From assembly GCF_003946345.1 (NCBI RefSeq), contig NZ_RHNY01000004.1, forward strand, positions 1 through 64,000: DNA of 64,000 bases, read 5' to 3'. Positions 6,859 to 38,899 of the stretch are shown here, piece after piece (the first letter of the stretch is position 1; each line of letters opens with the position of its first letter). Position numbers and translations under genes: made by a program. The DNA is from Levilactobacillus tongjiangensis. Its GTDB lineage: Bacteria > Bacillota > Bacilli > Lactobacillales > Lactobacillaceae. Below the pieces are notes generated by a model, which saw only the letters and a list, made by a program, of their open reading frames with translations, was not told the origin of the DNA and made no database searches.

Positions 6859-6986
6859 CGGGCCTTGCGGGGCTGGAACGGTGTGCGCGCGTTTGGGAGC
6901 CAAAGAGCGGTCTCCCAAGCCGGCGCTGTCTAACCGACGAAAAGCTCGTCGCCAAGACAGTTCCACGCCTGAGCCCCCGGCCCTCC
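6859..6986 (-). repeat. Palindromic repeat copy A1 (two-hairpin class)
   Basis: Core on the minus strand: H3 hairpin with stem TTGGGAG/CTCCCAA and loop GCTCTTT; H1 hairpin with CTGTCT/AGACAG ends (on + at about 6925-6962). Closing arms GCGGGGCT (6867-6874) and AGCCCC (6972-6977), the least regular of the family. Open frames inside are by-products of the symmetry. Confidence 0.75.
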
Positions 6987-7076
6987 GTTCGCTGGATAGT
7001 GGTTGTTAAAACCATGGTTCTGGTGAAGTGGGGGGCAGCAACAATTGGCCCTGATTTTCAGTGAGACAACAGTGTT

Positions 7077-7131
7077 AACTCAGACTTGCTAGCTCACAAC
7101 CAATAGTGGCCAACTAGCATGCAGTCTGAGT
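7077..7131. repeat. Inverted repeat between copies A1 and A2
   Basis: AACTCAGACT (about 7078) and AGTCTGAGTT (about 7122) with a smaller GCTAG/CTAGC pair inside. It lies between the two divergent palindromic elements. No gene here. Confidence 0.55.
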
Positions 7132-7138
7132 TACGGCC

Positions 7139-7430
7139 GGTTCATGGGCTTAGTTGTGGGTCGCTCACGTGGTTGTGGCGACGCACCAATCGTGAGCCGG
7201 AGGATGGCAGGGACCGCGCAGTGTCGATGTTCTTAGCGGTTTACCGCTTAGAACATGGGCCGACCTTGGAAACTCGCGAACTGAGCGAGGTTGCAAGGCG
7301 CCTGGGAGACCGCTCTTAGGCTCCCAGGTCTGCCCCACAGCGCGGTCCCTGCCAGCCGCAGGCGGGCACCTCAGTTTTTTGACTTTCAGCCCACCCAACA
7401 GGTGACCACCCAACAACTAAGCCCATAACC
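7139..7430 (+). repeat. Palindromic repeat copy A2 (three-hairpin class) in a larger palindrome
   Basis: Closing stem GGCAGGGACCGCGC (7206-7219) with its exact complement at 7340-7353. Inside are H1 GTTCTTAGCGG/CCGCTTAGAAC, H2 CCTTGG..CTCGC/GCGAGG..CAAGG and H3 CCTGGGAG-A-CC/GGCTCCCAGG. It is flanked by conserved ends AGCCGGAGG (left) and CCGCAGGCGG (right). Outer arms ATGGGCTTAGTTG (about 7144) and CAACTAAGCCCAT (about 7414) enclose it, making a ~290-bp nested palindrome. This copy defines the plus orientation used for the family. Confidence 0.85.
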
Positions 7431-7432
7431 TT

Positions 7433-7461
7433 TTGGCAGTAACGAAGGACCATGTTAAAAT
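7433..7461 (+). promoter_or_regulatory. Promoter of the purine permease gene
   Basis: TTGGCA (7433-7438), 17-bp spacer, TAAAAT (7456-7461) with extended TG at 7453-7454. Predicted start about 7468, giving a ~140-nt leader. Confidence 0.7.
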
Positions 7462-7467
7462 ATAAGG

Positions 7468-7609
7468 CGGTTGGCAATTGTCAGCCGTACGGGTGTCCGA
7501 CCTTTCCTCAGCGGGAAAGTGAAACCCAGCCGGAAGTTTGAGACCCTCCGGTTGCAATGCCCGTGAAGTTTGTGCGTCACAGCTGGCGCACCGAAAGATA
7601 GGGATTTTT
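7468..7609 (+). ncRNA. Structured leader RNA / candidate riboswitch of unknown class
   Basis: The 5' leader of the purine permease folds densely. ACGGG near 7489 pairs with CCCGT near 7560 and encloses hairpins CTTTCC/GGGAAAG and CCGGA/TCCGG. A third hairpin GTGCG/CGCAC precedes the AGGGA ribosome site. This multi-stem junction before a purine transporter suggests ligand sensing. It does not match purine, PRPP, preQ1, THF or TPP aptamer consensus sequences as I know them. Confidence 0.5.
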
Positions 7610-8923
7610 ATGGATAAGCAACAGACGCAGGTGGAACGCGCAAACAATATGACGCTACGCGAAGCACTGCGACATAAGGATGTCGTTCGAAATGAGATAA
7701 TCGCCGGGGTGACGGGGTTCTTCGCCATCTCCTACATTATTATCGTGAACCCGTTGATCCTAAAGGACGCGGGGATTCCCACGGACTTGAGCGTCTTCGC
7801 CACCATTTTCTCGTCAGTCATTGGGTGTTTGATGATGGCCTTTTGGGCCAACGCACCGGTGATCTTGACGCCAGGGATGGGGGTCAACGCCTTCTTTACC
7901 TACACCATCGTGGTGAACATGGGTCTGAGTTGGCAAGAAGCACTGGGTATCGCGGCGGTCGCCAGTTTTATTTACATGTTGATTGCCTTCACCAAAGTTT
8001 CGACCATTCTCTCGGAGGCGATTCCAGAATCGCTGAAGAGTGGGATTACCGCGGGAATCGGACTCTTCCTGGTTGAAATCGGCCTGGAAAAAGCGGGCCT
8101 GATTGTCGCCGGTAAAACTTCACTGGTCGTGCTGGGTGATTTGACCAAACCCACGCCGTTACTGGCACTGTTTGGCCTGGTACTCAGCTTGATCCTCTAC
8201 ATCCGCAAGATTAAAGGCAACTTCTTCATCGACATTATTGCCACGAGCTTGCTGGCGTTCTTCCTGGGTGTAAAGGATAGTGACACCCCCACCGTTGATT
8301 TAGCACGGTTGGGCCAATACCACGAAATCGTCTTCAAAAACGACTTCTCTCACTGGTTGAGCACACCGTTCATCTTAGCGGCCTTCTCAATGACCATGAT
8401 TTTGGTCTTTGAGTCGATGGGCCTGCTCCAAGGCCTGTTGCCGAACCACAAGAAGTTCAAGAAGACCTTCGAGGGGAGTGCGGTTACCACGTTCTTGTCT
8501 GGATTCCTAGGAACCAGCCCGACCGTTGCCGCTGCCGAAAGTGCCTCCGGAATTGAGAGCGGGGGTCGGACTGGAATCATGGCCTTAGTGGCCGCAGTCC
8601 TGTTTGCCCTCTCCCTGATTTTCGTGCCACTGCTGGCCTACGTGCCTTCAGCCGCCATTGCACCGGTGATCATTATCACTGGAGCCATTATGATGGCTGC
8701 CATCGGCAACATTGACATGAAGGACTTCTCCGAGTGGTTCCCAGCCTTTCTGATCATCGTGTTAATTTCGTTCACCAATAGTATTGCCACCGGGTTGGCT
8801 TTCGGTTTTGTTTGCTACCCCATCATGAAAGTGGCGTTGGGCAAGGCCAAAGAATTGACCTGGCCAGTTTATCTGCTTGGTGTGTTATTCCTGTGTGACT
8901 TGGTCTTCAGTGCCATGTTATAG
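7610..8923 (+). CDS. NCS2-family (AzgA-like) purine permease
   Basis: A 437-residue protein with about 12-14 membrane helices. The N-terminal segment GVTGFFAISYIIIVNP, the NAPVILTPGMGVNAFF loop and the later LGTSPTVAAAESASGIESG signature identify the AzgA/PbuG branch of nucleobase:cation symporters, which import hypoxanthine, guanine or adenine with H+. I start at ATG 7610, nine bases after AGGGA, because the residues encoded upstream from TTG 7538 lie in structured leader RNA and are not family-like. It fits the cluster by importing bases directly, or recovering those released by the downstream nucleoside hydrolase. Confidence 0.92.
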   Translation: MDKQQTQVERANNMTLREALRHKDVVRNEIIAGVTGFFAISYIIIVNPLILKDAGIPTDLSVFATIFSSVIGCLMMAFWANAPVILTPGMGVNAFFTYTIVVNMGLSWQEALGIAAVASFIYMLIAFTKVSTILSEAIPESLKSGITAGIGLFLVEIGLEKAGLIVAGKTSLVVLGDLTKPTPLLALFGLVLSLILYIRKIKGNFFIDIIATSLLAFFLGVKDSDTPTVDLARLGQYHEIVFKNDFSHWLSTPFILAAFSMTMILVFESMGLLQGLLPNHKKFKKTFEGSAVTTFLSGFLGTSPTVAAAESASGIESGGRTGIMALVAAVLFALSLIFVPLLAYVPSAAIAPVIIITGAIMMAAIGNIDMKDFSEWFPAFLIIVLISFTNSIATGLAFGFVCYPIMKVALGKAKELTWPVYLLGVLFLCDLVFSAML

Positions 8924-8946
8924 CGGGAATTAACCGCCAGCCTAAA

Positions 8947-8961
8947 ACGTAAGCGTTTCCG
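8947..8961 (+). promoter_or_regulatory. cre-like site upstream of nucleoside hydrolase
   Basis: ACGTAAGCGTTTCCG resembles the CcpA operator consensus with two deviations. TATAAA (8965-8970) just downstream may be a -10. Suggests carbon control of nucleoside breakdown. Confidence 0.45.
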
Positions 8962-9004
8962 CTTTATAAAATTACAACTAATTTCATTGGGAGGATATTT
9001 TATT

Positions 9005-9919
9005 ATGACTATCAAAATTATTATGGATACAGACCCAGGTATTGACGATGCAGCTGCTTTGACCATGGCTATCAACGACCCTAAGATCGACTTGAAGTTG
9101 ATCACCACGGTTGCTGGTAACGTTACGGTCGACAAGACCACCATCAACGCCTTGAAGATCGTTCGGTTCTTCAACCAAGACATTCCAGTTGCCGGTGGTG
9201 CTGAACAACCACTGTTCAAGGACTTTGAAGACGCTGCTCGGATTCACGGCGCTTCCGGGATGCCTGGCTACGAATTCCCAACTGATTTGCCAACACCATT
9301 ACACAAGACGGCCGTTGAAGCGTTGCATGACGAAATCATGGCTAGCCCAGATCCAATCACGTTGGTGCCAACTGGTTCATACACCAACATTGCCTTACTC
9401 TTCTCTGAATACCCAGAAGTTAAGAGCCACATCGAACGGATCGTTGCCATGGGTGGTTCATTAGGCATGGGGAACATGACGAGTGCTGCTGAATTCAACG
9501 TCTTCACCGACCCAGATGCTGCCGCTATCGTTTACAAGTCTGGTGTGCCAATCGTGATGGTTGGTTTGGACATCACCATGAAGGCTTTGCTGACACACGA
9601 AAGTATCGAAGAACTGCCTAAGATCAGTGAAACTGGGAAGATGTTACACGACATCATCGTTAACGATGGTGACAACAGTGATGCTGGGATCGCCATGCAT
9701 GACGTGAACACCATCTTCTACCTGTTGCACCCAGAAGCAATCACGACCAAGGACATGTGGATCGATGTTGTGACCGATGGCCCATCTATCGGTGAAACGG
9801 TCGGCGATATTCGTGGGGCTTACCATGATGGCAAGACCAACGCGAAGGTTTCTGTCGACATTGACGACGCAGCCTTCAACAAGTGGTTCCTTGAAGAAGT
9901 TCGGGCCATTAAGAACTAG
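9005..9919 (+). CDS. Inosine-uridine-type nucleoside hydrolase
   Basis: A 304-residue cytosolic enzyme hydrolysing the N-glycosidic bond of ribonucleosides to base and ribose. The N-terminal MDTDPGIDDAAAL holds the DxDxxxDD calcium/ribose-binding cluster; VPTGSYTNIALL, the EFNVFTDPDAAAIV segment and the late catalytic-site histidine region (HDVNTIFYLLHP) are diagnostic of IU-NH (RihA/B/C). Start at ATG 9005, preceded by TTGGGAGG. Codon use is strongly biased to preferred codons, implying high expression. It completes a salvage route with the upstream transporters. Substrate preference is not assigned. Confidence 0.93.
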   Translation: MTIKIIMDTDPGIDDAAALTMAINDPKIDLKLITTVAGNVTVDKTTINALKIVRFFNQDIPVAGGAEQPLFKDFEDAARIHGASGMPGYEFPTDLPTPLHKTAVEALHDEIMASPDPITLVPTGSYTNIALLFSEYPEVKSHIERIVAMGGSLGMGNMTSAAEFNVFTDPDAAAIVYKSGVPIVMVGLDITMKALLTHESIEELPKISETGKMLHDIIVNDGDNSDAGIAMHDVNTIFYLLHPEAITTKDMWIDVVTDGPSIGETVGDIRGAYHDGKTNAKVSVDIDDAAFNKWFLEEVRAIKN

Positions 9920-9958
9920 TTTCGCAAAGTGAATGTTGTTTAATATAACGACGATAAA

Positions 9959-9994
9959 GGTAGTGCCAGGCTGCGGTCTGACGCTACCTTTTTT
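9959..9994 (+). terminator. Rho-independent terminator
   Basis: GGTAGTGCCAG (9959-9969) pairs with CTGACGCTACC (9978-9988), then a T-run. Ends the nucleoside hydrolase transcript. Confidence 0.9.
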
Positions 9995-10092
9995 GGTAGC
10001 AAAAACTTTACAGAAACGAGTGGTCTTTCCATACAGAATCGTTACATGAGCCTGATATGATGGGGTCAAAATTAGGGGAAGAGGATGGTCCC

Positions 10093-10185
10093 ATGTCAGC
10101 CACGGATATGGATACGTTGATCTTGTTGATTTTAACCTGGCTCCCCATGCTATGGTTCGTGCGGAAGCCGAAGAACCGCTACTGA
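10093..10185 (+). CDS. Small hydrophobic peptide (30 residues)
   Basis: ATG 10093 to TGA 10183-10185 encodes a 30-residue peptide with one membrane span (TLILLILTWLPMLWFV) and a basic tail (RKPKNRY). An extended -10 promoter TGATATGAT (10053-10061), a GGGGAAGAGGA ribosome site and a following hairpin (10201-10226) frame it as its own short transcription unit. The layout resembles type I toxin or holin-like peptides of lactobacilli, but no antisense RNA is evident. Function unknown. Confidence 0.5.
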   Translation: MSATDMDTLILLILTWLPMLWFVRKPKNRY

Positions 10186-10200
10186 TTGAAAATAAAGCTG

Positions 10201-10229
10201 GGCCCTCAGAGTTGTTTCTGGGGGCCTTG
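10201..10229 (+). terminator. Hairpin after the small peptide gene
   Basis: GGCCCTCAGA and TCTGGGGGCC form a 10-bp stem with a 6-nt loop, followed by a weak TTGATT tail. Confidence 0.6.
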
Positions 10230-10461
10230 ATTAGTTATGTGATGAAAAGAAATTGAATCGGTAATTTTGGCGGACTAGAATCGGGTGGCTCGGTAAGTTT
10301 GCTCAGTGTTTGCGGAAAATTTACAAGATGTTGACAGAGACCACATCAATTATTTACAAGAATCCGCTATGCTAGGGAGTAACTTAGTGATAGTCGGGGT
10401 TCTGCTGTCGCCGGGTGCTGTCCCGGTGGCCGCAAGTTTATTTGATGGGGGCAACGGGGGC

Positions 10462-11334
10462 ATGAATAAATTCACAATCGTTCACATATCTGATCCACAG
10501 TTAACCACGGCGGAACCGCAGTACCACCAGCAGCTCCCGCCAACGGCCAAACTACAACGCATTTTTGACGATGTTTTAGCGCACGACCTCCGACCGGACT
10601 TAGTGGTGGTGGGGGGCGACCTGCTACAGGAGGGGACCTCACAGGACTATGCGTGGTTTCGGCAGTACCTGGCCCAACAGGCGAAGCGCTTAGGAGCACC
10701 GATCAACGTTATCTTAGGGGATGGCGACGACCGGGAAGCCTTTAACACCGGCTACTTAGAACAAGCACACCAACCGTATTATGCGTACAAGCAAATGTAT
10801 CAGAACATGGATTTTTACTTTCTGGATTCCAAATGGGAACCGAATAAAGAGGCCGGCTGGCTGGATCGTCAGCAACTAGACTGGCTGAACAAGAATCTTC
10901 ACCTAGCGCCCCGGCGGCGAGCCTTTATTTTTCTCCACCACCCGTTGGATGCGCCGGCTTTGCACAATATGCGCTACGCCTTGCTCCAGAATAACCGCGA
11001 ACTGCTAGCGATTCTGCATGGTCACAACATTGGCGGTATCTTTGCCGGGCACCTGCACTTTGATGCCAGTTATCTGGTCGATTTGACCATTCCAGTAACG
11101 GCGGTGGGATCGGCGTCCACCTATATTGATTGTCAGGATCCGAACCGTCACGAGGTCCACGACGGCTGTAGTTACAACGTCATTACGATTCAACGGGGGA
11201 TGGCGAGCGTAACCCACCAGCCGCTATATTTGGGCCAGACCATCATCGACACCATCGACGTCAACAGCACGGGCTTCGTCAAGCATCGCCCCAGGCTAAC
11301 CCTCTCAAAGAGAGCGGCGGGGCCGTCGATGTAG
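10462..11334 (+). CDS. Calcineurin-like metallophosphoesterase (CpdA-like)
   Basis: A 290-residue cytosolic phosphoesterase. Motifs in order: HISDPQL (DxH block with the first Asp, His replaced by Gln), VVGGDLLQEG (GD block), ILGDGDD where the family has GNHD, FLHHPL (H), and FAGHLHFD (GHxH). The layout fits cyclic-nucleotide phosphodiesterases of the CpdA/Icc type. The changes in the first and third motifs could weaken one metal site. ATG 10462 is preferred; an in-frame extension to 10306 adds 52 residues with no family resemblance and overlaps promoter-like sequence. The natural substrate is not evident. Confidence 0.8.
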   Translation: MNKFTIVHISDPQLTTAEPQYHQQLPPTAKLQRIFDDVLAHDLRPDLVVVGGDLLQEGTSQDYAWFRQYLAQQAKRLGAPINVILGDGDDREAFNTGYLEQAHQPYYAYKQMYQNMDFYFLDSKWEPNKEAGWLDRQQLDWLNKNLHLAPRRRAFIFLHHPLDAPALHNMRYALLQNNRELLAILHGHNIGGIFAGHLHFDASYLVDLTIPVTAVGSASTYIDCQDPNRHEVHDGCSYNVITIQRGMASVTHQPLYLGQTIIDTIDVNSTGFVKHRPRLTLSKRAAGPSM

Positions 11335-11471
11335 GGTGAATAACCCAAGATTCTCGTAGGCAGCGGGCAGTCTAGCAGCAAGTGATCTCAATTCTAGAAG
11401 AATAACCAACCAGAGTTGCTAACAATTAATCTGAATGAAGAATTACAATCAACGGCTAATCTTAGCCGAGA

Positions 11472-11613
11472 GGTCACAGCAGATGGGCTCAGGCGCCTCG
11501 TTATTCTTAGCGCCGGTGGGTTACCGACGCTTAGAATAAGACCAAGTTTTAAGACTCGGGGTTTTCGAGGCTTAAAATTGTGTCGGCACCGTTCCAGCCC
11601 ATCTGCTGTGACC
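11472..11613 (+). repeat. Palindromic repeat copy B1 (two-hairpin class)
   Basis: Closing stem GGTCACAGCAGATGGGCT (11472-11489) with an exact 18-bp complement at 11596-11613. Inside: H1 TTATTCTTAGCG/CGCTTAGAATAA and H3 TTTTAAG-A-C/GGCTTAAAA. Conserved ends AGCCGAGAGG at the left and CCGGTAAGGCG at the right. Plus orientation. Confidence 0.85.
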
Positions 11614-11653
11614 GGTAAGGCGAGCATTAAAGTAAATTGAAAAGAGTTCATGG

Positions 11654-11700
11654 AGGGGTGATTCCCAGTAGGTCAACGGGAATCACCCCTCATCTTATTT
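11654..11700. terminator. Strong bidirectional hairpin terminator
   Basis: GAGGGGTGATTCCC (11654-11667) and GGGAATCACCCCTC (11679-11692), perfect 14-bp stem, then ATCTTATTTT. Confidence 0.75.
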
Positions 11701-11717
11701 TCCGTGGGCAATTGCCG

Positions 11718-11849
11718 TTTCATGTGACGCCGCTTTTCGGTATAATAGGAAACGACGTGAAGGCGAACCCCAATTGAACCGTCAGTTCGGTTGCGTTTCG
11801 CCTGTAAGTAAGGTAAAGTATAAATAAGCGTGAAACAATTGTGTTTCAC
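11718..11849 (+). promoter_or_regulatory. Promoter and hairpin leader of the rsmG-parB operon
   Basis: TTTCAT (11718-11723), 17 bp, TATAAT (11741-11746). The leader then contains a hairpin with AGGCGAA/TTCGCCT ends (about 11760-11802), a second -10-like TATAAA (11819-11824), and an inverted repeat GTGAAACA-ATTG-TGTTTCAC (11830-11849). The arms of that repeat equal the two half-sites of the ParB site parS but in reversed order. Confidence 0.6.
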
Positions 11850-11872
11850 AGAAGTGAACTGGGAGATATTGC

Positions 11873-12601
11873 ATGAATCCTGAAGAATTTCGTGCCGCGC
11901 TCGCTGCGCAGGGCATTGCGTTAAACGACACACAGCAACAACAATTCGCTGACTACTACCAATTCTTGGTGGCGACCAACGAACACGTTAATTTAACCAC
12001 GATTACCGCGGAGCCCGACGTCTACTTGAAACATTTTTATGACTCGGTGACCCCCGCTTTTTACGTGCCTGCAATGCGGACGGAACCGTTGACGCTCTGT
12101 GACGTAGGAGCCGGAGCTGGCTTTCCTTCGTTACCGTTGAAGATTTTGTTCCCGCAACTGCAGATCACCATCGTGGATTCGTTGAACAAACGGATCACCT
12201 TCCTGAACGAACTGGCAGCCAAACTGAACTTGACCGGCGTCGCGTTTCATCACGCTCGGGCCGAAGAGTTCGGTGGCAAGCGGGCCGATTCCCGAGAAGC
12301 GTTTGACCTCGTGACGGCCCGCGCCGTTGCCCGGATGTCCGTGCTGAGTGAGCTGTGCCTGCCACTAGTTAAGGTCGGCGGTCAGTTCGTGGCGTTAAAG
12401 GCGGCTCAGACGGAAAATGAATTGGCTGTCAGCCAGACGGCGATCACCACGTTGGGCGGGAAGCTGAACGCGGACCATGCTTTTAATTTGCCTGAATCCA
12501 ACGACCCACGGCACATCGTGGTCATTGATAAGGTCAAGCACACACCTAAGCGGTACCCACGTAAGGCGGGAACACCGAACCGGGAGCCGTTAGAAGATTA
12601 A
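11873..12601 (+). CDS. rsmG: 16S rRNA (guanine-527-N7)-methyltransferase
   Basis: A 242-residue SAM-dependent methyltransferase modifying G527 of 16S rRNA. The SAM-binding loop reads [16 protein letters not shown], followed by [14 protein letters not shown] and [12 protein letters not shown], all RsmG/GidB hallmarks. Length is normal. ATG follows GGGAGATATT. It is the first gene of the chromosome-segregation block, 19 bases ahead of noc, an arrangement typical of Firmicutes near oriC. Confidence 0.97.
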
Positions 12602-12620
12602 TGGGATGGGGGTAAGATAA

Positions 12621-13454: not shown

Positions 13455-13468
13455 AGGTGGAACGACAT

Positions 13469-17188: not shown

Positions 17189-17242
17189 ATCTTTGGGGTA
17201 AACCTAAGCTTTTGACAAGGTGGATGGTGGCCGCCTGCGGCT

Positions 17243-17390
17243 GCCAGAGACTGCGCTGTGGGGCGAACCTGGGAGCCAAAAAGCGGTCTCCCAGGCGCCT
17301 TGAAACCTCGCTAAGTTCGCGAGTTTCCAAGGTCGGCCCATGTTCTAAGCGGTAAACCGCTAAGAACATCGACACAGCGCAGTCCCTGGC
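17243..17390 (-). repeat. Palindromic repeat copy C1 (three-hairpin class)
   Basis: Closing arms GCCAGAGACTGCGCTGTG (17243-17260) and CACAGCGCAGTCCCTGGC (17373-17390) differ at one base, an A/C on plus that is a G-U on the minus strand. Core hairpins match copy A2 in reverse. Conserved ends CCGCCTGCGG and CCTCCGGCTC flank it. Confidence 0.85.
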
Positions 17391-17465
17391 TTCCTCCGGC
17401 TCACGTCGGTGGTTAGCTGGTCCACTCTGGTTGCCGAGTACCAGTTATATTTTAATTTGTCATGG

Positions 17466-17493: not shown

Positions 17494-17562
17494 GTTGCAG
17501 TGAATGCCAATTATCGCCACCTGCGGCTGACTGGGGCAACGCACTGCTGGTATCGCCGCCTG

Positions 17563-17702
17563 CGGTTGACTGGGACCACGCTGTGGGGCGAACCTGAGAG
17601 CCAAAAAGCGGTCTCTCAGGCGCCTCGGAACTTCACTAAATTCGCGAGTTTCCAAGGTCGGCCCATGTTCTAAGCAAAGACCGCTAAGAACATCGACACG
17701 CA
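17563..17702 (-). repeat. Palindromic repeat copy C2 (core with one normal arm)
   Basis: Same three-hairpin core as C3, 160 bp upstream in tandem. The left arm GGTTGACTGGGACCACGCT (17563-17581) has no true partner because the right arm is replaced by the junction to C3. A further partial arm occurs at about 17525-17544, so the array grew by tandem duplication. Confidence 0.75.
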
Positions 17703-17722
17703 CCACTGGTATTGCCGCCTGC

Positions 17723-17877
17723 GGCTGACCGGGGCCACGCTATGGGGCGAACCTGAGAGCCAAAGGGCGGTCTCTCAGGCGCCTTGAAACCTCGCTAAGT
17801 TCGCGAGTTTCCAAGGTCGGCCCATGTTCTAAGCGAAGACCGCTAAGAACATCGACACAGCGTGGCCCCGGTCAGCC
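17723..17877 (-). repeat. Palindromic repeat copy C3 (three-hairpin class)
   Basis: Perfect 19-bp closing stem: GGCTGACCGGGGCCACGCT (17723-17741) and its complement at 17859-17877. Core hairpins as in C1. Flanked by GCCGCCTGCGG and CCTCCGGCTC. Confidence 0.85.
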
Positions 17878-18050
17878 TCCGGCTCTAAATTGTGGTGACC
17901 TGTTCTGTTGGTGGCCGTATTTCACGGTCGACTAATACGGGAGACTAATTCGTGTTATCTAGGATATCAATTTAATGTTAGTTAGATAGGAACTGCATTG
18001 TGGCATGACTTTACCAGACTAATGGGTGCCAGCCATGTTAGCCGAGAGGT

Positions 18051-18177
18051 CGTCAAATATAGGCTCAGCCGTGGAACTGTCTTAGCGGAGTGGTCTGCTC
18101 CGGTTAGACAGCGCCGGCTTGAGAGACCGCTCTTTGGCTCTCAAACGCGCGCACAGCGTTCCAGCCTATATTTGACG
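18051..18177 (+). repeat. Palindromic repeat copy D1 (two-hairpin class)
   Basis: Closing stem CGTCAAATATAGGCT (18051-18065) with a perfect complement at 18163-18177. H1 CTGTCTTAGCGGAG/CTCCGGTTAGACAG; H3 TTGAGAG-A-CC/GGCTCTCAA. Left end AGCCGAGAGG, right end CCGGCAGGCGGC. Confidence 0.85.
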
Positions 18178-18214
18178 GCCGGCAGGCGGCACACAACCGA
18201 CAATCCCATCAGGT

Positions 18215-18341
18215 CGTCAAATATAGGCTCAGCCGTGGAACTGTCTTAGCGGAGTGGTCTGCTCCGGTTAGACAGCGCCGGCTTGGGAGACCGCTCTTTG
18301 GCTCCCAAACGCGCGCACCGCGTTCCAGCCTATATTTGACG
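18215..18341 (+). repeat. Palindromic repeat copy D2, tandem duplicate of D1
   Basis: Identical arms to D1 exactly 164 bp downstream. H3 differs: its stem is TTGGGAG/CTCCCAA instead of TTGAGAG/CTCTCAA, a compensated change between two otherwise near-identical copies. Region 18342-18657 beyond shows nothing recognisable. Confidence 0.85.
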
Positions 18342-18711
18342 GCCGGTAGGCGGTACACAACCGACAATCTCACAATCCCATCAGACCAGTAAATGCAAGC
18401 CTGAACACTCGCTTAGTTTTAGTCGGAATAATAGAAAAAAGTTTTTTCGGATGGTCTTTTTCAATAAATGGGCGTAGTAGTACAGGGGCGCACCTGCTTG
18501 TGAAAAGATGGCTGGTATTGGCGGACGTACAGTCTGGAATTTTGGCGCTAAATGTTGGCCCGTAGCGGTTAATGGGCGCACTCACAAATCGGGTAGAACC
18601 TGTGAAAAGTTGGTGCTTGACCCGGCAAGCGGATGGCCCTATTATGCAACCAAGTAGTTGAGCTGCTTCCGGGCCCGACGAAAAAATCCATATTCTCGGG
18701 GAGGATTTTTT

Positions 18712-21070: not shown

Positions 21071-21103
21071 TGTTCTTGTTGCTTTATTTGCCGCCTCCGG
21101 CGC

Positions 21104-21265
21104 CCAGAAATTTGGCCCGCTGTGGGGACCGGGGCAAGCCTGAGAAGCGGTCTTGCCCCTCGACTTGAAGCCTCGGTAACCCGCCGAGTCTCCAAGCTCG
21201 TCCCACGGACTAGGTCGGCCAAGAACGCCAACCAATTCCGTCGACACCGCGGGCCAAATTTCTGG
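21104..21265 (-). repeat. Palindromic repeat copy E1 (three-hairpin class)
   Basis: Perfect 17-bp closing stem CCAGAAATTTGGCCCGC (21104-21120) with its complement at 21249-21265. H3 (minus) GGGGCAAG-A-CC/GGCTTGCCCC. Ends CCGCCTCCGG and CCTGCGGCTAC flank it. Confidence 0.85.
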
Positions 21266-21577
21266 TCACCTGCGGCTACGATGGCGGGTGACCACTACCT
21301 GGCCGATGCAACCTGTGGCGTCACTGGGCCTGGCATAGGGTATGCTGACCATTTGACCGCTGTTTGGATTGGATCAGCTGATTTATGTAGTAGGCTGGCT
21401 GTGCGGGGACGGCTACGCCAATGGTTTTGTCGTTTTGATGATGGATTAATTGAAGCGTCAAAATAGCTAGCTCACTCAGTATCTAAGTTATGGCTAACGA
21501 CGAAAGATTTAGTGGTTAAGACTATGATTGAAATTTCAAACTAAACCGATGGTGATTAGCGGACGATGTAGCCGGAG
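21266..21577. other. Spacer between divergent repeats E1 and E2
   Basis: About 310 bp without a supported gene. Short open frames here are extensions of the palindrome symmetry. Nothing else recognised. Confidence 0.5.
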
Positions 21578-21749
21578 AAAGTTAGGAGTGGTGCCGGCCG
21601 TGTCGGTGGTCTTAGCTCGGCGAAATTTGCCGAGGTTAGAGCACGGGACGAGCTTGGAGACTCAGAGTTCTTCTGAGGCTTCAAGTCGAGCTGGCGAACT
21701 GTTTCTCAGGCCGAAAGCGGTCCCCACGGCAGGCGCCGCTCCTGACTTT
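21578..21749 (+). repeat. Palindromic repeat copy E2 (three-hairpin class)
   Basis: Arms AAAGTTAGGAGTGGTGCC (from 21578) and GGCGCCGCTCCTGACTTT (from 21732) differ at three positions, each giving a U-G pair on the plus strand. Hairpins CTCGGC/GCCGAG and GCTTGGAGACTC/GAGGCTTCAAG are visible; H3 is degraded. Left end GTAGCCGGAG. Confidence 0.75.
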
Positions 21750-23243: not shown

Positions 23244-23376
23244 GGGCGAGAAAAATAAGCTGGAACGCTGTGAACGCGATTTCGAGCCAAGGAGCGGTCT
23301 CGAAACTCGGTTCTGCCTAACCACGGAAGAACGCCGTGCTAAGGCAGTGCCACGGCTGAGCCTATTTTTCTCGCCC
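23244..23376 (-). repeat. Palindromic repeat copy F1 (two-hairpin class)
   Basis: Closing arms GGGCGAGAAAAATAAGCT (23244-23261) and AGCCTATTTTTCTCGCCC (23359-23376), one A/C mismatch that is G-U on minus. H3 (minus) TTCGAG-A-CC/GGCTCGAA. Confidence 0.85.
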
Positions 23377-23475: not shown

Positions 23476-23612
23476 GGGCGGGCCTGTAGGTGCTCAGCCA
23501 TGAAATTTCTCTTAGCTGAGCGGGCTTCTCAGGTTAGAGAAAGGTCGGTCTTTGAGACCGCCCTTTGGCTCAAAGCCGTGCCCATGGCGTTCCAGCACCT
23601 ACAGGCCCGCCC
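23476..23612 (+). repeat. Palindromic repeat copy F2 (two-hairpin class)
   Basis: Perfect 19-bp closing stem: GGGCGGGCCTGTAGGTGCT (23476-23494) and its complement at 23594-23612. H1 TTTCTCTTAGCTGAG/CTCAGGTTAGAGAAA; H3 CTTTGAG-A-CC/GGCTCAAAG. Left end AGCCGTGAGG, right end CCGGTAAGGCG. Confidence 0.87.
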
Positions 23613-32202: not shown

Positions 32203-32219
32203 GACACAGGAGACGCTAT

Positions 32220-32567
32220 ATGAGTACAGTTAATACGTGGACCAGTACGCAACACTTTTGGCTAATCATTCTAGGCTTTTTCGTTGCCTTCGTACCGCGC
32301 TTTCTTCCCCTGATGTTGTTCACCAAGCGGGCAATTCCCGAATGGTTCAACGAATGGATGAAGTATGTGCCGGTATCGTTATTTACGGCACTGGTGGTCA
32401 AGGATATCTTTATCAATAGCGAAAGCTATCAATTCATGTTCACCAAGTTCTCTGAAATGCTTGCAGCCATTATTGTGGTGTTCATTGCGTACAGGACGCG
32501 GTCAATGGCACTTTCCGTAGTTGTCGGATTAATTGCTGTTTTCCTGTTGTCGCTGGTTATTGCGTGA
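32220..32567 (+). CDS. azlD: Branched-chain amino acid exporter small subunit AzlD
   Basis: A 115-residue protein with about four helices. FVPRFLPLMLFTKRAIPEW and YVPVSLFTALVVKDIF match the AzlD family. It partners with AzlC upstream in a two-subunit exporter. ATG preceded by AGGAGACG. Confidence 0.9.
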   Translation: MSTVNTWTSTQHFWLIILGFFVAFVPRFLPLMLFTKRAIPEWFNEWMKYVPVSLFTALVVKDIFINSESYQFMFTKFSEMLAAIIVVFIAYRTRSMALSVVVGLIAVFLLSLVIA

Positions 32568-32588
32568 CTAAATTTAACAAATATGACG

Positions 32589-32617
32589 AAGGCGGAGCTG
32601 CTGGCTCCGTCTTTTTT
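32589..32617 (+). terminator. azlCD terminator
   Basis: AAGGCGGAG / CTCCGTCTT (one G-U) with a six-base loop, then T-run. Confidence 0.85.
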
Positions 32618-32872
32618 GAGGCCTTTTTTATTGATAAAGTTATCTTTGAAATTAAGTTAATGATGTTCACCATCTCTGATGGAGGCCAAGCATAACACGT
32701 TTTTCCCCCGAGAAACAGGAGAGATGAAAAGCACGCGAATCGGTTTAGGGGCGACGCTACATTGGCAGATTTTTTGAGTAGAATTTTGCGTAGTTATTTA
32801 AATCGGAAGACCTTTATCTAGTTCAAAGGATGATGTTGCAGTACATTTGTCGATAGATTAGGGGGCGTCTCT

Positions 32873-33106
32873 GTGGGACAAGTTATTTCGATTCAGTTTG
32901 ATGCAGAACTTGATGCGTTACTGACTACGTATACAGAAAATCATGGAATGAGTAAAGCGGCATACATTCAACAAGTTGTGAGTGAAAGACTTGTTGAATG
33001 GGAGAGTGAGCTAGTTTTGAGGCAAGCACTGAAAGATTGGCAGGCTGACGGTTTTAGAACGAAATCGTGGCAAGAGACACTACAAGAGTTACATTTAGAT
33101 GATTAA
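32873..33106 (+). CDS. RelB/DUF6290-like ribbon-helix-helix antitoxin, orphan
   Basis: A 77-residue protein. The N-terminal strand VISIQFDAELDALL and helix GMSKAAYIQQVVSERL fit a ribbon-helix-helix DNA-binding antitoxin; the acidic C-terminus would bind a toxin. GTG start. No RelE/ParE toxin gene follows; instead there is a short spacer and palindromic copy H. Probably a degenerate or stand-alone antitoxin. Confidence 0.75.
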   Translation: MGQVISIQFDAELDALLTTYTENHGMSKAAYIQQVVSERLVEWESELVLRQALKDWQADGFRTKSWQETLQELHLDD

Positions 33107-33176
33107 GAAAAACGAGACAATTTTGAAGGTAAATATGTAGGTGATGATAAGGTTTGGTGCAGTACATTGCGATATA

Positions 33177-33351
33177 GTTGTCGGTCGGCCGGTACAGAGT
33201 CCGGTGGCGGTAGTCTTAGGCGGGGGGGCTTCCGGCCTTAGAGTACGGGTCAATCTTTGAAACTCGTTCTTTGAGGTTCAAAGTTGCCCTGAAGACCGGA
33301 CCATAGGCTTCAGGTCTACCCCACGGGACGGCGTACCGGCCGACCGACAAC
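33177..33351 (+). repeat. Palindromic repeat copy H (three-hairpin class)
   Basis: Perfect 19-bp closing stem GTTGTCGGTCGGCCGGTAC (33177-33195) with its complement at 33333-33351. H2 TCTTTGAA..CTC/GAGGTTCAAAG; H3 CCTGAAG-A-CC/GGCTTCAGG. It lacks the conserved outer ends of other copies. Confidence 0.82.
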
Positions 33352-33378
33352 GGAATTACACAACCATAATTCAAAACA

Positions 33379-33426
33379 AAAAGCACCTCTTCAACCAGTG
33401 ATCAATCCGGTTGAAACGGTGCTTTT
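33379..33426. terminator. Bidirectional terminator, serves cfa
   Basis: AAAAGCACC..TTCAACC pairs with GGTTGAA..GGTGCTTTT; A-run on one side and T-run on the other. Confidence 0.88.
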
Positions 33427-33469
33427 AACATTCATATCGAGTGATCCGCGGTCACCCGATCTATTTGGC

Positions 33470-34666
33470 TTAGTCTGCTACCTTGGCGTGGGTTTCATCG
33501 TACATGTAATCACGCGTCATAGGTAACATCCGGGCTGAAGGGCCCTTAGAAATCAAATACTGAATCACGTCAATATTACCAGATTTGAAGGACGCAGCGC
33601 AAGCCTGTAGGTAAAGATCCCACATGCGAACGAAACGTTCGTCAAACATCTTGGTAACTTCATCGCGGTGTTCGTTAAAGTTCTTGTCCCAAATTTCGAC
33701 CGTCTTTTGGTAGTGACGACGAAGGGGTTCCATATCATCGATTTGTAAACCGCTCTCGATGATGTGGGTGGTGTTTTCAATCAAGCCAGGAACGTAGCCA
33801 CCTGGGAAGATCCATTTGTTCAACCAACCGTTGTTAGCGCCACCTTGTTGACGGGTGATCCCGTGAATCAAGGCAACCCCGTCGCTCATCAGGTACTTTT
33901 GAACGCAGTCGAAGTATTGGCCCAAGTTTTCTTGGCCCACGTGTTCAAACATCCCAACGGAGGTGATGTAATCCCACTTTTCGTTGCCTAATTCCCGGTA
34001 GTCTTCCAACCGGACTTCAGCAACGTCTTCCAGGCCTTCATCAGCGATACGTTGGTTCACGTAGTCGTATTGTTCCTGACTCAACGTGATCCCGGTAACG
34101 TGCAGACCATATTCCTTGGCAGCCGTTAACATCAAGGTTCCCCAGCCACAGCCAATATCAAGTAACGTCTTGCCCGGTTGGGGGTTCAACTTCTTGATGA
34201 TGTGGTGGACCTTGTTGACTTGGGCCGTGTACAGGTCGTCGTCTGGCGTTTCGAAGTAGGCACAGGAATAAGTCATGGTGTCGTCCAACCAGAGATTGTA
34301 GAAGTTATTCCCAATGTCGTAATGGTTTTGAACGTCAGTCTTACTTTCCTTTTCGGTATGCTTTTGTTTAGGCAGGAAGTGGATAAACTTCTTGTTGTGG
34401 AAGAAACTGTCGGCGTTTTCGTAAGCGGCCGTCAGTAAGTCTTCAATACTGCCATCGATCTCGATCTTACCGTCCATGATGGCTTCCCCCAGCGCAATGG
34501 ATGCGTTGCGAGAAATTTCCTTAATTGGAATGGCCTCATGAATTGTGATGGTGACTTCGGGAGTGCCAGTCCCATATACATCAGATGATCCGTCCCAATA
34601 GTTAACGCGAACGGGGATGTTAAAGGTGTGACTCAGAAACGTTTTGTAAAAAGTTTTTTCAAGCAT
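33470..34666 (-). CDS. cfa: Cyclopropane-fatty-acyl-phospholipid synthase
   Basis: A ~398-residue SAM-dependent enzyme that adds a methylene bridge to unsaturated fatty acids of membrane phospholipids, raising acid and ethanol tolerance. [22 protein letters not shown], the SAM loop [12 protein letters not shown] and SVGMFEHVG are characteristic; the C-terminus includes PGGYVPGL. I take the ATG at 34666, eight bases after AAAGGA, rather than an upstream frame adding ten residues. Convergent with the RelB region and divergent from the gene at 34873. Confidence 0.95.
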
Positions 34667-34834
34667 GTCTGGAGTCCTTTCCGGTTTCGGTGTCAATGAC
34701 AGAGAAACAAAATTACTTAGCCATTATACGCCAATTACCCCCCTTAACGTAAGGGTGACGACTTAATGTAAGCGATTAACCTTTACTTTTGGTGAGAGTA
34801 TTTTCAAATGTAGGCGGACACCGGGTCAGCATGG

Positions 34835-34840
34835 TATAAT
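34835..34840 (+). promoter_or_regulatory. Extended -10 promoter
   Basis: TGGTATAAT (34832-34840) about 30 bases before the TTG start at 34873; no good -35, as expected for an extended -10. Confidence 0.55.
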
Positions 34841-34872
34841 GAAAGTACAATTAACCAGCGGAGGTCTTCATT

Positions 34873-35769
34873 TTGAAAAAATGGGTATGGGTCGTGGCAA
34901 CAATCGTGGTGGCACTGCTGATTGGTGGTTACGCATATTCGAATCATCATGCGACAGCCAAAGAGTACCAGGCGGCAATGGCCAACGGGCGGACAGCCAT
35001 TCAAAGTAAACACTACACGCAAGCGGAAAGTTACTTCCAGAACGCTTTAAAGCGTCGGTTGAACGATAAGACCGCACAGACGTATTTGACACAGACACAA
35101 CGGTACGTGGCCGCTGATAGCGCCATGGATTCCTTGAAGTTTGATAACGCTGAGAAGCACTACCAAGACGTCAAGGGCATGACCGGTGGGTCCAAGGTCT
35201 TAGTTACCAGAGCCAAGGCGGCGTACAAGAACGTCAAAGTGGTTCGCAATAACGCTAAGCAATTTAAGAAGATTTTGAGTAAAGCCCAGGGTGAGAACAA
35301 AGCCTTGAACTACGGGCAATCGAACACGACGTTGGATGAATTATTCACGAACACTAAGTTCAAGCAGAAGTACTACAAGGACATCTACGCTCAGGCGTTG
35401 GCTCTACGTAAGGCCAACAATGCTGGTCAAACGAGTCAAGTGACGTCCGATGCAACGACGGATGCGTCGTCCAGCAACCAAAGCGGTAGTGATACAGCTA
35501 CTAGCAGTTCCAGTGCTGGCTTGACGTCTGCTGAACAGGCTGCGGCGAACAACTACTCTGGTACCAACGAGTACACCGTGACGAAGAAGCAAAAGGAATT
35601 GAACGGTAAGGTAATTACGGCCGGGCAGATTAGTAGTGCCCGGAAGACTATCAACGCAGCTGGGGGCCAGGCAAACGCCATGAGTGATCAGGACGTGCGG
35701 GTCGCGTTACAATCAGCTAGCAAGAAGGGCATGTCTTTAACTAAGTACGCCCAACAATATTTGAAATAG
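34873..35769 (+). CDS. Membrane-anchored TPR-like protein
   Basis: A 298-residue protein. An N-terminal anchor helix (VWVVATIVVALLIGGYAYS) is followed by TPR-like helices (YQAAMANGRTAIQSKHYTQA, YFQNAL; about 30-110), a further helical part to ~180, a Ser/Thr/Asp-rich linker (about 185-220) and a C-terminal domain with ITAGQISSARKTINAAGG and LTKYAQQYLK. It is probably extracellular, attached by the N-terminal helix. TTG start after GGAGG. Conserved in lactobacilli to my knowledge, but function unknown. Confidence 0.7.
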   Translation: MKKWVWVVATIVVALLIGGYAYSNHHATAKEYQAAMANGRTAIQSKHYTQAESYFQNALKRRLNDKTAQTYLTQTQRYVAADSAMDSLKFDNAEKHYQDVKGMTGGSKVLVTRAKAAYKNVKVVRNNAKQFKKILSKAQGENKALNYGQSNTTLDELFTNTKFKQKYYKDIYAQALALRKANNAGQTSQVTSDATTDASSSNQSGSDTATSSSSAGLTSAEQAAANNYSGTNEYTVTKKQKELNGKVITAGQISSARKTINAAGGQANAMSDQDVRVALQSASKKGMSLTKYAQQYLK

Positions 35770-35777
35770 AGTCAGCG

Positions 35778-35828
35778 ATAGACGCCACATCAGTTAACGC
35801 AGTTTAGCTGGTGCGGGCGTCTATTTTT
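35778..35828 (+). terminator. Rho-independent terminator
   Basis: ATAGACGCC and GGCGTCTAT with inner pairing CAG/CTG, followed by a T-run. Confidence 0.75.
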
Positions 35829-36086
35829 AGTCAAAACTTACCTTTTTGAACGAAACAGTCCCGGAACTTAACCCGATTGGTAAGTTAGCAAACAAATAGT
35901 TTCGGTGGGTGTATAATTAATTTGGTTGGTGGATTAGTTATTTTAATGACATAAACCCCACAGTGACGCTGGTTTCCCGGACATTCAACGTTTAAACCAG
36001 TAAAAAAGTTCACGAGTCATTATTTATAACAAATTGGTATGGTTGGCTTACTATAGACTTAGAATCAGAATCTACAAAGGGGGTGG

Positions 36087-36196
36087 GTAACACGGCCCCC
36101 GAAAAATAGCGGGTGAGCACCAATCTTGGGGGATGGGCGACCTAATAACTGATTTGATTCCCGAATCACCAAAGCTATTTGGGGGAGCAGTGTTAC
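36087..36196 (+). repeat. Large inverted repeat spanning the start region of the ROK gene
   Basis: Arms GTAACACGGCCCCCG..AAATAGC (36087-36110) and GCTATTTGGGGGAGCAGTGTTAC (about 36174-36196; given in two parts GCTATTTGGGGG and AGCAGTGTTAC) are complementary with small bulges. A smaller GATTC-CC-GAATC palindrome lies inside. Upstream (35829-36086) a -10 TATAAT at 35912-35917 is visible and no gene. Confidence 0.65.
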
Positions 36197-36205
36197 CAGA
36201 AAATT

Positions 36206-37390
36206 ATGATTATCAACAAACACATCATGCGTACAACCAATGAGAAACAGGTTTTGCAGCAGATCGTGAATGCTGGGCCAATTTCTCGTAGTCAAATTTC
36301 AAGAAATCTCTGTCTGAATAAGGTGACGGTCTCTGACATTTATAGTCAATTACTCAGTGAAGGGTTGATCCGTGAGGTTGGTCACGGGGTCAGCACCCGG
36401 AACGGTGGTAGAAAACCAGTTATGGCATTACTAAACGTGGGGTATGGTTATGTCATTAGTATTAACATTTTGCGGTCACGCTTCTCGATGATTACCTGTC
36501 GGTTAGATGGGCGGTCTGAGAATTATCAAAGTGTGTCGACCCGCGACGTTGATCTGACGACCGTGTTGGACATGATCGACGAACGAATCGCGGCCACCAT
36601 TGCGGCCAGCGAGACTAAGCTATTGGGTATCTCGTTTGGGCTGGACGGTGTCATTTACGACAACCAGATTCTGGGTGCCTCACTGAAGGGCTTTAAGAAC
36701 TTTGATTTAGCGAAATACTTCAGTGACAAGTTCCAGGTACCGGTCGTGTTGGAAAACTTGGCGAACGAGTCCGCTATCTACGAGCGTGACTTCTCCGGCA
36801 AGGGCGTTTACAACAACCTGATTTCCGTAACGATTCGGGATCAGGTCTCCGCCGGCATCATTACCGAGGGTCACCTGTACCGTGGCCATAACGGCGAGGC
36901 CGGTAACATCGGTTCCTGCCCATTGGCGGACCGTTATGAGGAAAAGACGTCGGACACCGTCAACCATTACGTGGCGGAGCGGCCGGTCCTTCAGAAAATT
37001 ATGGCGTACCAGAAACTCGACCGGGTCGACGTGAACCGAATCCGGCGTGACTACCTGGGGCATCGGCCAGAGTTGTTGGCAATTCTTGATGAATTTGCCT
37101 TCTACCTGGCGAAAGTGTTGGGCAACCTGTCCAATACCTTTGCGCCGGACGCCATCGTGGTCAACGCACCAATCTTGGAACTCCTGCCAGAAATCATGGA
37201 TAAGGTGCGGACTTACGTGGACAGCATGGCCATCATGCGTAAGGCACCGATGATTTTAACGAAGAACGCGAAGGAAGCCTCCCTGATGGGTGGGGCCTCC
37301 GCTATCATCCACAAGGCTTTGGCCTTAGACGACCTGCAACTGACGTTTGGCAATCAGCGGTCGGCGGTTCTAGAAGAAGTTGAATCTTAA
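36206..37390 (+). CDS. ROK-family transcriptional regulator (NagC/XylR-like)
   Basis: A ~394-residue protein. The N-terminal winged helix (VLQQIVNAGPISRSQISRNL, LNKVTVSDIYSQLL, GRKPVMALLN) is followed by a ROK kinase-fold domain (about 80-390) with the GHNGEAGNIGSCPL region, equivalent to the family's ExGH/GHNGExGH sugar-binding segment. The CxCGxxGCxE zinc motif is not obvious. It should bind a sugar or sugar-phosphate and control transcription, but no sugar operon lies next to it. Start uncertain: ATG 36206 fits XylR-type N-termini; TTG 36179 would lie within the inverted repeat. Confidence 0.85.
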   Translation: MIINKHIMRTTNEKQVLQQIVNAGPISRSQISRNLCLNKVTVSDIYSQLLSEGLIREVGHGVSTRNGGRKPVMALLNVGYGYVISINILRSRFSMITCRLDGRSENYQSVSTRDVDLTTVLDMIDERIAATIAASETKLLGISFGLDGVIYDNQILGASLKGFKNFDLAKYFSDKFQVPVVLENLANESAIYERDFSGKGVYNNLISVTIRDQVSAGIITEGHLYRGHNGEAGNIGSCPLADRYEEKTSDTVNHYVAERPVLQKIMAYQKLDRVDVNRIRRDYLGHRPELLAILDEFAFYLAKVLGNLSNTFAPDAIVVNAPILELLPEIMDKVRTYVDSMAIMRKAPMILTKNAKEASLMGGASAIIHKALALDDLQLTFGNQRSAVLEEVES

Positions 37391-37433
37391 AATAAGAGAA
37401 TGAGCAGAATGCTCGCATGAATGAGAAAATGGG

Positions 37434-37467
37434 GAAGCTGAGTCCGTTGGGACTGAGCTTCTTTTTT
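37434..37467 (+). terminator. Rho-independent terminator
   Basis: GAAGCTGAGTCC / GGGACTGAGCTTC with a short loop and six T, after the ROK gene. Confidence 0.88.
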
Positions 37468-37608
37468 GGTGACTGGCCTCAAAATTAGCTGACCGAGGCG
37501 GCTAAGAATGATGGTTGGCAAACACGCTGGGTTGCCTGACAAAAATACTAGGGAATCTGACCCCTTAGGGTATAATGAGGGTATTGAGGAACAGAGGGAG
37601 GACCACAA

Positions 37609-38691
37609 GTGAGTTTATGGCAACGCTTCGTTGAAAACGTCCAGCTCCGGCGATTTACGGTGCTGGCACTATTGATATTTGTCCTATGGTTGATTCGGTC
37701 GGAAATGAACATGATTCTATTGACGTTCATTTTTACTTTTCTGGTGCTACAGCTGGTTAAGGCGATTCGTAAGGTGGTTAAATTGCCGCCTGCGCTGATT
37801 GTGACGGTGACCTACGTGTTAGTCATTGGTGGCCTGTACTGGGCGGTAACGACCTATCTGCCGCAGATTATGACGTCGTCGATCCACGGGGTCGAGAACT
37901 TGTATAAGTTCTACCAGAAACCGGGGAACGATAATAACGAGATCATTCGTTACGTGACCAATTACATTAACAATACCAACTTCATGAGCCAGCTCCAGAG
38001 TGGGGCCAAGATTGTCTTGACCTACATCTCAACGATTGGGTCGTTTGGGGTCACGCTGTTCATGTCGATGATCCTGAGTTTCTTCTTCACCATCGAGAGC
38101 AAACAGATGACGGCGTTCTCCAAGCGCTTCCTGACGAGTACGTACGGCTGGTTCTTTGAAGATATCAATTTCTTTGCAACTAAATTCGTGAATACGTTTG
38201 GGGTTGTGCTGGAAGCGCAGTTCTTCATTGCCCTGTGCAACACGGTGATTACGACGGTGGTGCTGGCAATTATGGGGATGCCTCAGTTGCCGACGTTGGC
38301 CATCATGATCTTTATCCTGAGCCTGATTCCTGTGGCCGGGGTCATCGTGTCCATCGTCCCGTTGTCAATTCTGGGGTACTCAGTTGGTGGCTTCCGCTAC
38401 GTGGTCTACATTTTGGTTATGATGGTGGTCGTTCACGCGTTAGAAGCCTATGTGCTGAATCCCAAATTCATGTCGAGTCGAACGGAACTGCCCATCTTCT
38501 ACACCTTCGTGGTGCTGTTGGCGGGGGAACAACTCTTTGGCGTTTGGGGTCTGATCGTTGGGGTCCCAATCTTTACGTTCTTCCTGGATATCCTGGGGGT
38601 ACGGCCGGTGCATGGGCTGCACCAGGCACCGCATGTCGATGTTAAAAAGCTCAAGGAGTATCGGCGGAACCATAGTAACGACGAACATTAG
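37609..38691 (+). CDS. AI-2E family (UPF0118/YdiK-like) transporter
   Basis: A 360-residue membrane protein with about seven or eight helices. The pattern of two N-terminal helices, an amphipathic middle (about 80-150), and the C-terminal signature LSLIPVAGVIVSIVPL, ALEAYVLNPKFMSSRTELP and LFGVWGLIVGVPIFTFFLDIL identify the AI-2E family. Members export quorum signal AI-2 or act as Na+/H+ antiporters; which applies is not visible. GTG start after GGAGGACCACAA. Confidence 0.9.
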   Translation: MSLWQRFVENVQLRRFTVLALLIFVLWLIRSEMNMILLTFIFTFLVLQLVKAIRKVVKLPPALIVTVTYVLVIGGLYWAVTTYLPQIMTSSIHGVENLYKFYQKPGNDNNEIIRYVTNYINNTNFMSQLQSGAKIVLTYISTIGSFGVTLFMSMILSFFFTIESKQMTAFSKRFLTSTYGWFFEDINFFATKFVNTFGVVLEAQFFIALCNTVITTVVLAIMGMPQLPTLAIMIFILSLIPVAGVIVSIVPLSILGYSVGGFRYVVYILVMMVVVHALEAYVLNPKFMSSRTELPIFYTFVVLLAGEQLFGVWGLIVGVPIFTFFLDILGVRPVHGLHQAPHVDVKKLKEYRRNHSNDEH

Positions 38692-38705
38692 TCGTTGCGT
38701 GGGAT

Positions 38706-38899
38706 GGCCGCCTGTGGCCGCCAGGGATGGTGCTACTGCTGTGGGGACCGGAGCAAGCCTGAGGAGCGGTCTTGCTCCTCGACTTGAAACCTCGGGAGGT
38801 CACCGAGTTTCCAAGCTCGTCCCGTGGCCTAACCTCGGGAGGTCGCCGAGGCAATGCCACCGTCACATCCGGTCACCATCCCTAGCGACCTCCGGCTAC
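38706..38899 (-). repeat. Palindromic repeat copy I (three-hairpin class)
   Basis: Closing arms CCAGGGATGGTG (38721-38732) and CACCATCCCTAG (38874-38885), one C/A mismatch that is G-U on minus. H3 (minus) GGAGCAAG-A-CC/GGCTTGCTCC. Ends CCGCCTGTGG and CCTCCGGC flank it. Confidence 0.8.

Follow-up and report, generated by a model that had tools for sequence, protein, structure and literature searches.

The BOX elements of Streptococcus pneumoniae are modular, structured, intergenic repeats of a Gram-positive bacterium, and the BIMEs of enterobacteria are DNA repeats that bind nucleoid proteins or gyrase. The REP, REPIN and BIME sequences found with RAYT (TnpA-REP) are intergenic imperfect palindromes with conserved bulges, inverted dimers and a strand-specific shape. 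Some REPs have conserved bulges and are recognized in their folded, single-stranded form (PMC8266576, PMC3733652), and recognition of folded REP DNA is strand-specific in E. coli (PMC8266576). GTAG families are recorded from Proteobacteria, Cyanobacteria, Chloroflexi and the PVC group in a text that contains neither lactobacill- nor Firmicutes as a word (PMC3733652). MRSC-65-2, a mobile/repeat sequence candidate, is a structured multi-copy motif with strong covariation and a single long stem, and is thought to be a selfish element (PMC11109978). Here we describe a family of structured intergenic repeats from Levilactobacillus tongjiangensis, contained in a 64,000-nucleotide stretch of its genome (contig NZ_RHNY01000004.1 of assembly GCF_003946345.1, positions 1 to 64,000; hereafter the window). 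The repeats occur in many genera of one bacterial family, probably the Lactobacillaceae, and stand about an even chance of being non-autonomous mobile DNA with a REPIN-like organization and ends that fold with a fixed polarity.

The first-pass annotation of the window had listed 14 copies with one kind of shape. All 14 were read, fold as described when each is folded singly, and were recovered by a covariance model, which confirms the listed repeats as a real family. The repeat module is 120–190 bases long and consists of an outer stem enclosing two or three hairpins (H1, H2 and H3); the bulged A and the stem versions reported for H3 are correct on the strand reading H1-H2-H3. The single shared architecture that had been proposed needs qualification, as there are two related subtypes, with a GGAAC/TG internal loop present or absent, and hairpin slots are absent from some modules (the one at 11472 lacks H3). 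Nor are the copies independent palindromes; they are arranged as outward pairs. The copies in the window are given below, where R1 and R2 are two covariance models and G010 and G028 two closely related genomes.

6868 to 6984, minus strand: module of the GGAAC/TG subtype, left partner of 7196 to 7363 (read, folded, R1, R2).
7196 to 7363, plus strand: module with H1, H2 and H3, right partner of 6868 to 6984 (read, folded, R1).
11472 to 11613, plus strand: module of the GGAAC/TG subtype without H3, its outer-stem block altered on both arms in G010 (read, folded, R2).
17233 to 17400, minus strand: module with H1, H2 and H3, left side of a five-copy cluster (read, folded, R1).
17537 to 17710, minus strand: damaged extra copy in the cluster, which has three modules on this side here and two in G010 and G028 (folded, R1, comparison with G010 and G028).
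17717 to 17883, minus strand: module with H1, H2 and H3 (folded, R1).
18048 to 18180, plus strand: module of the GGAAC/TG subtype, right side of the cluster (folded, R1, R2).
18212 to 18344, plus strand: module of the GGAAC/TG subtype, directly adjoining 18048 to 18180 (folded, R1, R2).
21093 to 21276, minus strand: module with H1, H2 and H3, left partner, in the intergenic region preceding the IMP dehydrogenase gene (read, folded, R1).
21571 to 21747, plus strand: module with H1, H2 and H3, right partner of 21093 to 21276 (read, folded, R1).
23244 to 23376, minus strand: module of the GGAAC/TG subtype, 97% like the right module of G010 at the same site (read, R2, comparison).
23476 to 23612, plus strand: module of the GGAAC/TG subtype, 96% like the left module of G010 at the same site (read, R2, comparison).
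33177 to 33351, plus strand: module with H1, H2 and H3 (read, folded, R1).
38710 to 38896, minus strand: module with H1, H2 and H3, the model match beginning 36 bp past a stop codon (read, folded, R1).
61587 to 61680, strand not assigned: possible truncated module, listed earlier as a truncated copy; the CTGTGGGGAC start is seen by eye, and R1 reports no match at E up to 1.

Model R1 was built from 24 training copies on the strand reading H1-H2-H3, and R2 from 25 training copies of the GGAAC/TG subtype. R1 recovered nine of the 14 listed copies at E 1.8e-7 or better, two of which (21110 and 38727) belonged to its training copies, and the remaining five (11482, 23259, 18060, 18224 and 6874) at E 8.5e-7 to 7.5e-5. 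R2 recovered those five at E 2.3e-20 or better, four of them being R2 training copies. In 411 kb of the genome (contigs C34 and C1, E up to 0.01) R1 finds 58 copies, left from 68 rows after the removal of ten that were stretch overlaps, weaker opposite-strand matches or a fragment; a GTAG sequence lies near the 5′ end of 18 of them, a mixed result beside REP/REPIN sequences, which carry a GTAG or CGTC tag at one end. Genome-wide there are at least 150 R1 copies, the weakest at E 2.7e-12. This count comes from 889 candidates at first look, of which 150 were scored and all 150 matched, and the whole genome probably holds several hundred copies, judging from the number of candidates.

Within the genus, R1 matches are found in 33 of 35 genomes, that of L. 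tongjiangensis included, with up to 53 candidates scored per genome; G022 and G031 have none. In a sample of the family, where seven candidates were scored per genome and the counts are accordingly lower bounds, matches occur in at least 103 of 397 genomes (24 of the same genus) and at least 11 of 40 genera, one of which (g22) is counted on a single match at E 2.3e-6. The order sample gave four of 198 genomes, again including L. tongjiangensis. The repeats were initially taken to be genus-specific, on a first sample with 33 of 35 genomes inside the genus and none of 23 outside, and the wider family sample refuted this. A pattern scan of named genomes contributed three loci of Levilactobacillus yonginensis, which align over long stretches at about 85–93%; the other rows among the best 80 of 113 stretches belong to unrelated bacteria and archaea and are presumed to be chance. 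The family reaches far beyond the window and over many genera, a spread that the first-pass annotation had missed.

Closely spaced modules point away from each other. Among 180 copies of the L. tongjiangensis genome, neighbors no more than 700 bp apart form 35 outward, no inward and seven same-direction pairs, and in the relatives 24, none and five, respectively (81 of 99 rows after overlap removal, the G010 and G028 pairs being partly orthologs of window pairs). REP/REPIN sequences likewise form inverted dimers. Inward neighbors appear only at larger distances, with two within 1,500 bp and 18 within 6,000 bp. Outward pairs are also present in five of seven loci from other genera (L344 and L347–L350; genera g24 and g25), four of the five coming from one genus. 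One 2-kb outward pair, in contig C3, encloses two small reading frames of 122 and 168 amino acids, and none of the 58 copies overlaps a gene called by our own simple gene caller.

The covarying hairpins of the first-pass annotation hold up in a larger alignment built from the copies. Running R1 on 82 loci of the genus gave 174 matches at E 1e-8 or better, from which the top 150 (144 distinct) were aligned to the model; this set contains R1 training copies and some orthologs, and an alignment fitted to a structure leans toward that structure. Covariation is very strong. Paired cells make up 90.0% of 7,932, whereas shuffles reach 70.7% and slid controls no more than 42.3%. Two-sided changes occur in 49 of 56 pairs. 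The covariation score is 0.502; shuffles give 0.169, with none of 500 reaching the observed value, and slid controls do not exceed 0.083. When 51 copies were aligned with MAFFT and the structure was predicted on the other strand, 33 of 41 pairs showed two-sided changes.

The modules have a polarity, although the evidence is weaker than at first sight. Non-Watson-Crick cells comprise 326 G.U and 104 A.C, and 157 G.G and 14 C.C. The GG:CC mismatch ratio is 11.2 where loop composition predicts 2.8, the AG:CT ratio 3.6 (0.8 expected) and the AA:TT ratio 2.1 (0.24 expected). Unpaired module positions are G/T-rich and the 100-base flanks are not; it is this, together with purine mismatches in excess of composition, that indicates polarity. 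Two other signals were considered as proof of the strand and rejected: fold energy (139 of 144 copies more stable) by a shuffle control, and the G.U excess by a composition control. Numerous intergenic palindromic copies and inverted pairs would also suit double-stranded DNA cruciforms binding nucleoid proteins or gyrase, in the manner of enterobacterial BIMEs. A cruciform extrudes both strands, so that a consistent mismatch and loop polarity would be unexpected, and we regard this explanation as very improbable.

One part of the family, the CTAAAGG subfamily, belongs to the miniature inverted-repeat transposable elements (MITEs) by its terminal inverted repeats (TIRs), target duplications and lack of a visible gene. 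The unit is about 594 bp long, with 14-bp TIRs (CTAAAGGTTGAAAG/CTTTCAACCTTTAG) and two outward-pointing modules inside, one of the GGAAC/TG subtype on the left side and one of the H1-H2-H3 kind on the right. There are 73 TIR matches in the genome with at most one mismatch, compared with 0 and 1 for reversed-pattern controls. Target duplications of 7–10 bp (at most one mismatch) flank 12 of 24 TIR-bounded rows (22 distinct units), four of the 12 being perfect over 8 or more bp and the clearest units having perfect duplications of 7–9 bp; a permuted-flank control gave a mean of 0.81 and a maximum of 5. Among 14 MITE copies, pairwise divergence is 0.218 in the left tail, 0.211 in the spacer and 0.214 in the right tail, 0.164 and 0.131 in the TIRs, and 0.094 and 0.068 in the left and right modules. 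This slower divergence means constraint or gene conversion at the modules. Other subfamilies, many copies of which end in similar tips (GCCGCC/GGCGGC) without duplication by eye, have not been found in such units.

Comparison at fixed sites reveals exchange as well as retention. The mean module difference is 8.2% from G010, against 5.3% for the rest of the intergenic DNA and 9.3% at third codon positions, and 5.8% from G028 (8.0% and 15.3%, respectively). Several window modules differ by 0–5% from the relatives where their flanks differ more, those at 21589 and 38727 differ by 6–9%, little below their own flanks, and four comparisons differ by 16–27%. The high values are due to replacement at a fixed site: at 11472 the whole module is replaced in G010, with an outer-stem block changed on both arms, and at 6859 the interior is swapped in G028 and the outer stem kept. 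At 23244/23476, G010 has left and right modules exchanged and an unrelated spacer, identity being 97% and 96% crosswise and 69% and 68% straight, while G028 agrees with L. tongjiangensis. G028 holds a damaged module near 1126; at that site L. tongjiangensis and G010 retain no more than a scar-like remnant. Two more distant relatives (about 80% identity) have different intergenic regions occupied.

Such replacements bear on whether the fold is under selection, as the first-pass annotation had concluded from double changes. Covariation and the slower divergence of MITE modules support selection, but double changes alone are no proof of it, because template switching and element replacement also alter both arms together. 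It could be that no selection acts on the fold and that template switching within palindromes, with recombination between copies, keeps the arms complementary. The change on both arms at 11472 and the replacement at fixed sites are in keeping with this. By eye, so are a junction insertion at C10:23443–23596 (L052), which is a reverse-complemented stretch of the module's own H1 and resembles a template-switch footprint, and the perfect H1 hairpins of L059, L063, L038, L121 and L156, which are without their usual loop and look as though one arm were a copy of the other. However, mismatches and internal loops persist in many copies, where arm correction should erase them, and such correction does not by itself account for the polarity of the purine mismatches. 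The unpaired module positions of MITE copies also change less (0.053–0.063 from consensus) than the spacer (0.124). Absence of selection appears improbable.

The position of the modules relative to genes raises a further alternative, that they act as RNA at gene ends, as 3′-end barriers, terminators or insulators needed by the neighboring genes. Of the modules lying no more than 150 bp from a gene 3′ end, 24 face the gene and two face away. For 28 modules the gene 3′ end at which they are aimed is no more than 250 bp distant; 12 of these are separated from it by a terminator-like site according to our own scan, which missed one site seen by eye (C1:216381). For eleven of the remaining 16, the match to the model begins 23–58 bp past the stop codon, leaving little room for a terminator. 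The slower divergence of modules than of spacer in MITE copies would also agree with such a role. On the other hand, a transcript of the upstream gene would carry the other strand, not the one on which the loops are G/T-rich and the purine mismatches lie, and orientation tracks the borders of the intergenic region and not the direction of the genes, the 3′-side gene lying on the module's strand in 23 of 58 copies. No conserved promoter motif was seen upstream of the module 5′ end and no 3′ T-run, which gives no support to a discrete RNA with its own promoter or T-run; the 3′ flanks of 73 copies share little (two matches). A gene-end RNA is possible, if doubtful.

The family resembles described systems without coinciding with any of them. 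Rfam 15 gave no match at the gathering score in the window, and only tRNA and the TPP riboswitch in ten further loci; with the cut-off lowered to E up to 10, one RNaseP-T match overlaps a module (17.6 bits, cut-off 60, E 8.7). A plasmid collection (two queries) and a phage collection (one query) gave no match, in line with the family having gone unrecognized at first pass. Among the titles and abstract openings of open-licence papers that were listed, none describes the repeats. Passages and word counts of papers on structured motifs and stem-loop families gave no description of them either, and lactobacilli appeared there once, in a table row for L. johnsonii. REPs are 20–40 nt long, whereas the modules measure 120–190 nt and hold two or three hairpins. 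From MITEs the repeats differ in having structured modules, which have diverged less than other parts of the unit, and MRSC-65-2, as described, is set apart by its single long stem from the branched fold in outward pairs seen here. BOX elements are alike by description. The kind is already known, that of structured, dispersed, mobile repeats; new to the sources searched are the branched modules, the outward pairs and the range over many genera.

RAYT/IS200 enzymes are not supported as the mover, and the repeats, unlike REP/REPIN sequences, need no RAYT. G022 and G031, without R1 matches, hold one and five Y1 transposases, respectively, the opposite of what a Y1 mover predicts. One module lies about 870 bp from the L. 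tongjiangensis Y1 gene in contig C2, and a weak match (25 bits) about 400 bp from a Y1 fragment in C42; none was found near four Y1 loci of other genomes.

The best reading is that the repeats are long-lived, spread partly inside MITEs and are exchanged by recombination. The unit is two modules pointing apart that form both ends of an intergenic block, each folding on the outward-running strand into an outer stem, two or three hairpins and conserved internal loops. By analogy with REP/REPIN sequences, the folded single strand of each end may be recognized in trans by a putative recombination or transposition enzyme, and subfamilies outside the MITEs would be mobile as well. After insertion, copies would be exchanged by recombination with the fold retained. 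Several results weigh against this proposal. No transposase for the family was found; Y1 transposases (IS200/RAYT-type, PF01797) are absent from 12 of 35 genus genomes, 11 of which nonetheless have at least 23 matches among 53 candidates scored; and no TIR pair 1–3 kb apart, as for an autonomous partner of the MITE, was evident among the TIR matches (one mismatch allowed in each TIR). No target duplications were seen by eye outside the MITE subfamily, and no clean new insertion in the first 39 kb of the window among L. tongjiangensis, G010 and G028. Window modules, replacements included, are better conserved than other intergenic DNA relative to G028 and not relative to G010. As for polarity, the G.U excess matches the prediction from unpaired composition (3.13 vs 3.43), the fold-energy gap between strands is mostly compositional (−9.4 vs −8.0 in shuffles), and in the 14 MITE copies the pairs common to both strands' folds give G.U vs A.C of 29:13, which as distinct events is 18:11 (p 0.26, not significant).

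Other features of the window were noted in passing. Positions 32900–33240, compared by eye with about 36060–36360 of a G028 piece, have lost a second small reading frame that G028 keeps; the G028 frame follows the gene preceding the 33177 module and by eye resembles a toxin-antitoxin partner. Positions 39832–40366 and 43174–43742 align to the same segments of relatives, an apparent duplication of about 0.55 kb, and a reading frame of 2089 residues at 52463–58732 is internally repeated (many overlapping BLAST diagonals).

A broader proposal, which as a whole we consider speculative and unlikely, is that these are an undescribed class of DNA elements with two folding ends, long present in one bacterial family; a putative non-Y1 enzyme that reads folded single strands would move their outward modules, and hosts would keep many of them as insulators or 3′-end barriers, sometimes in place of terminators. 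If these results are confirmed, the collections searched here lack a major family of repeats from a bacterial family of industrial importance, one whose branched shape is kept in 11 of the 40 sampled genera while the letters turn over. Genome annotation would be affected, a single genome holding at least 150 intergenic copies and probably several hundred, and it would become testable whether bacterial repeats persist because they are selected where they stand, because copies recombine with one another or because a folded strand transposes.

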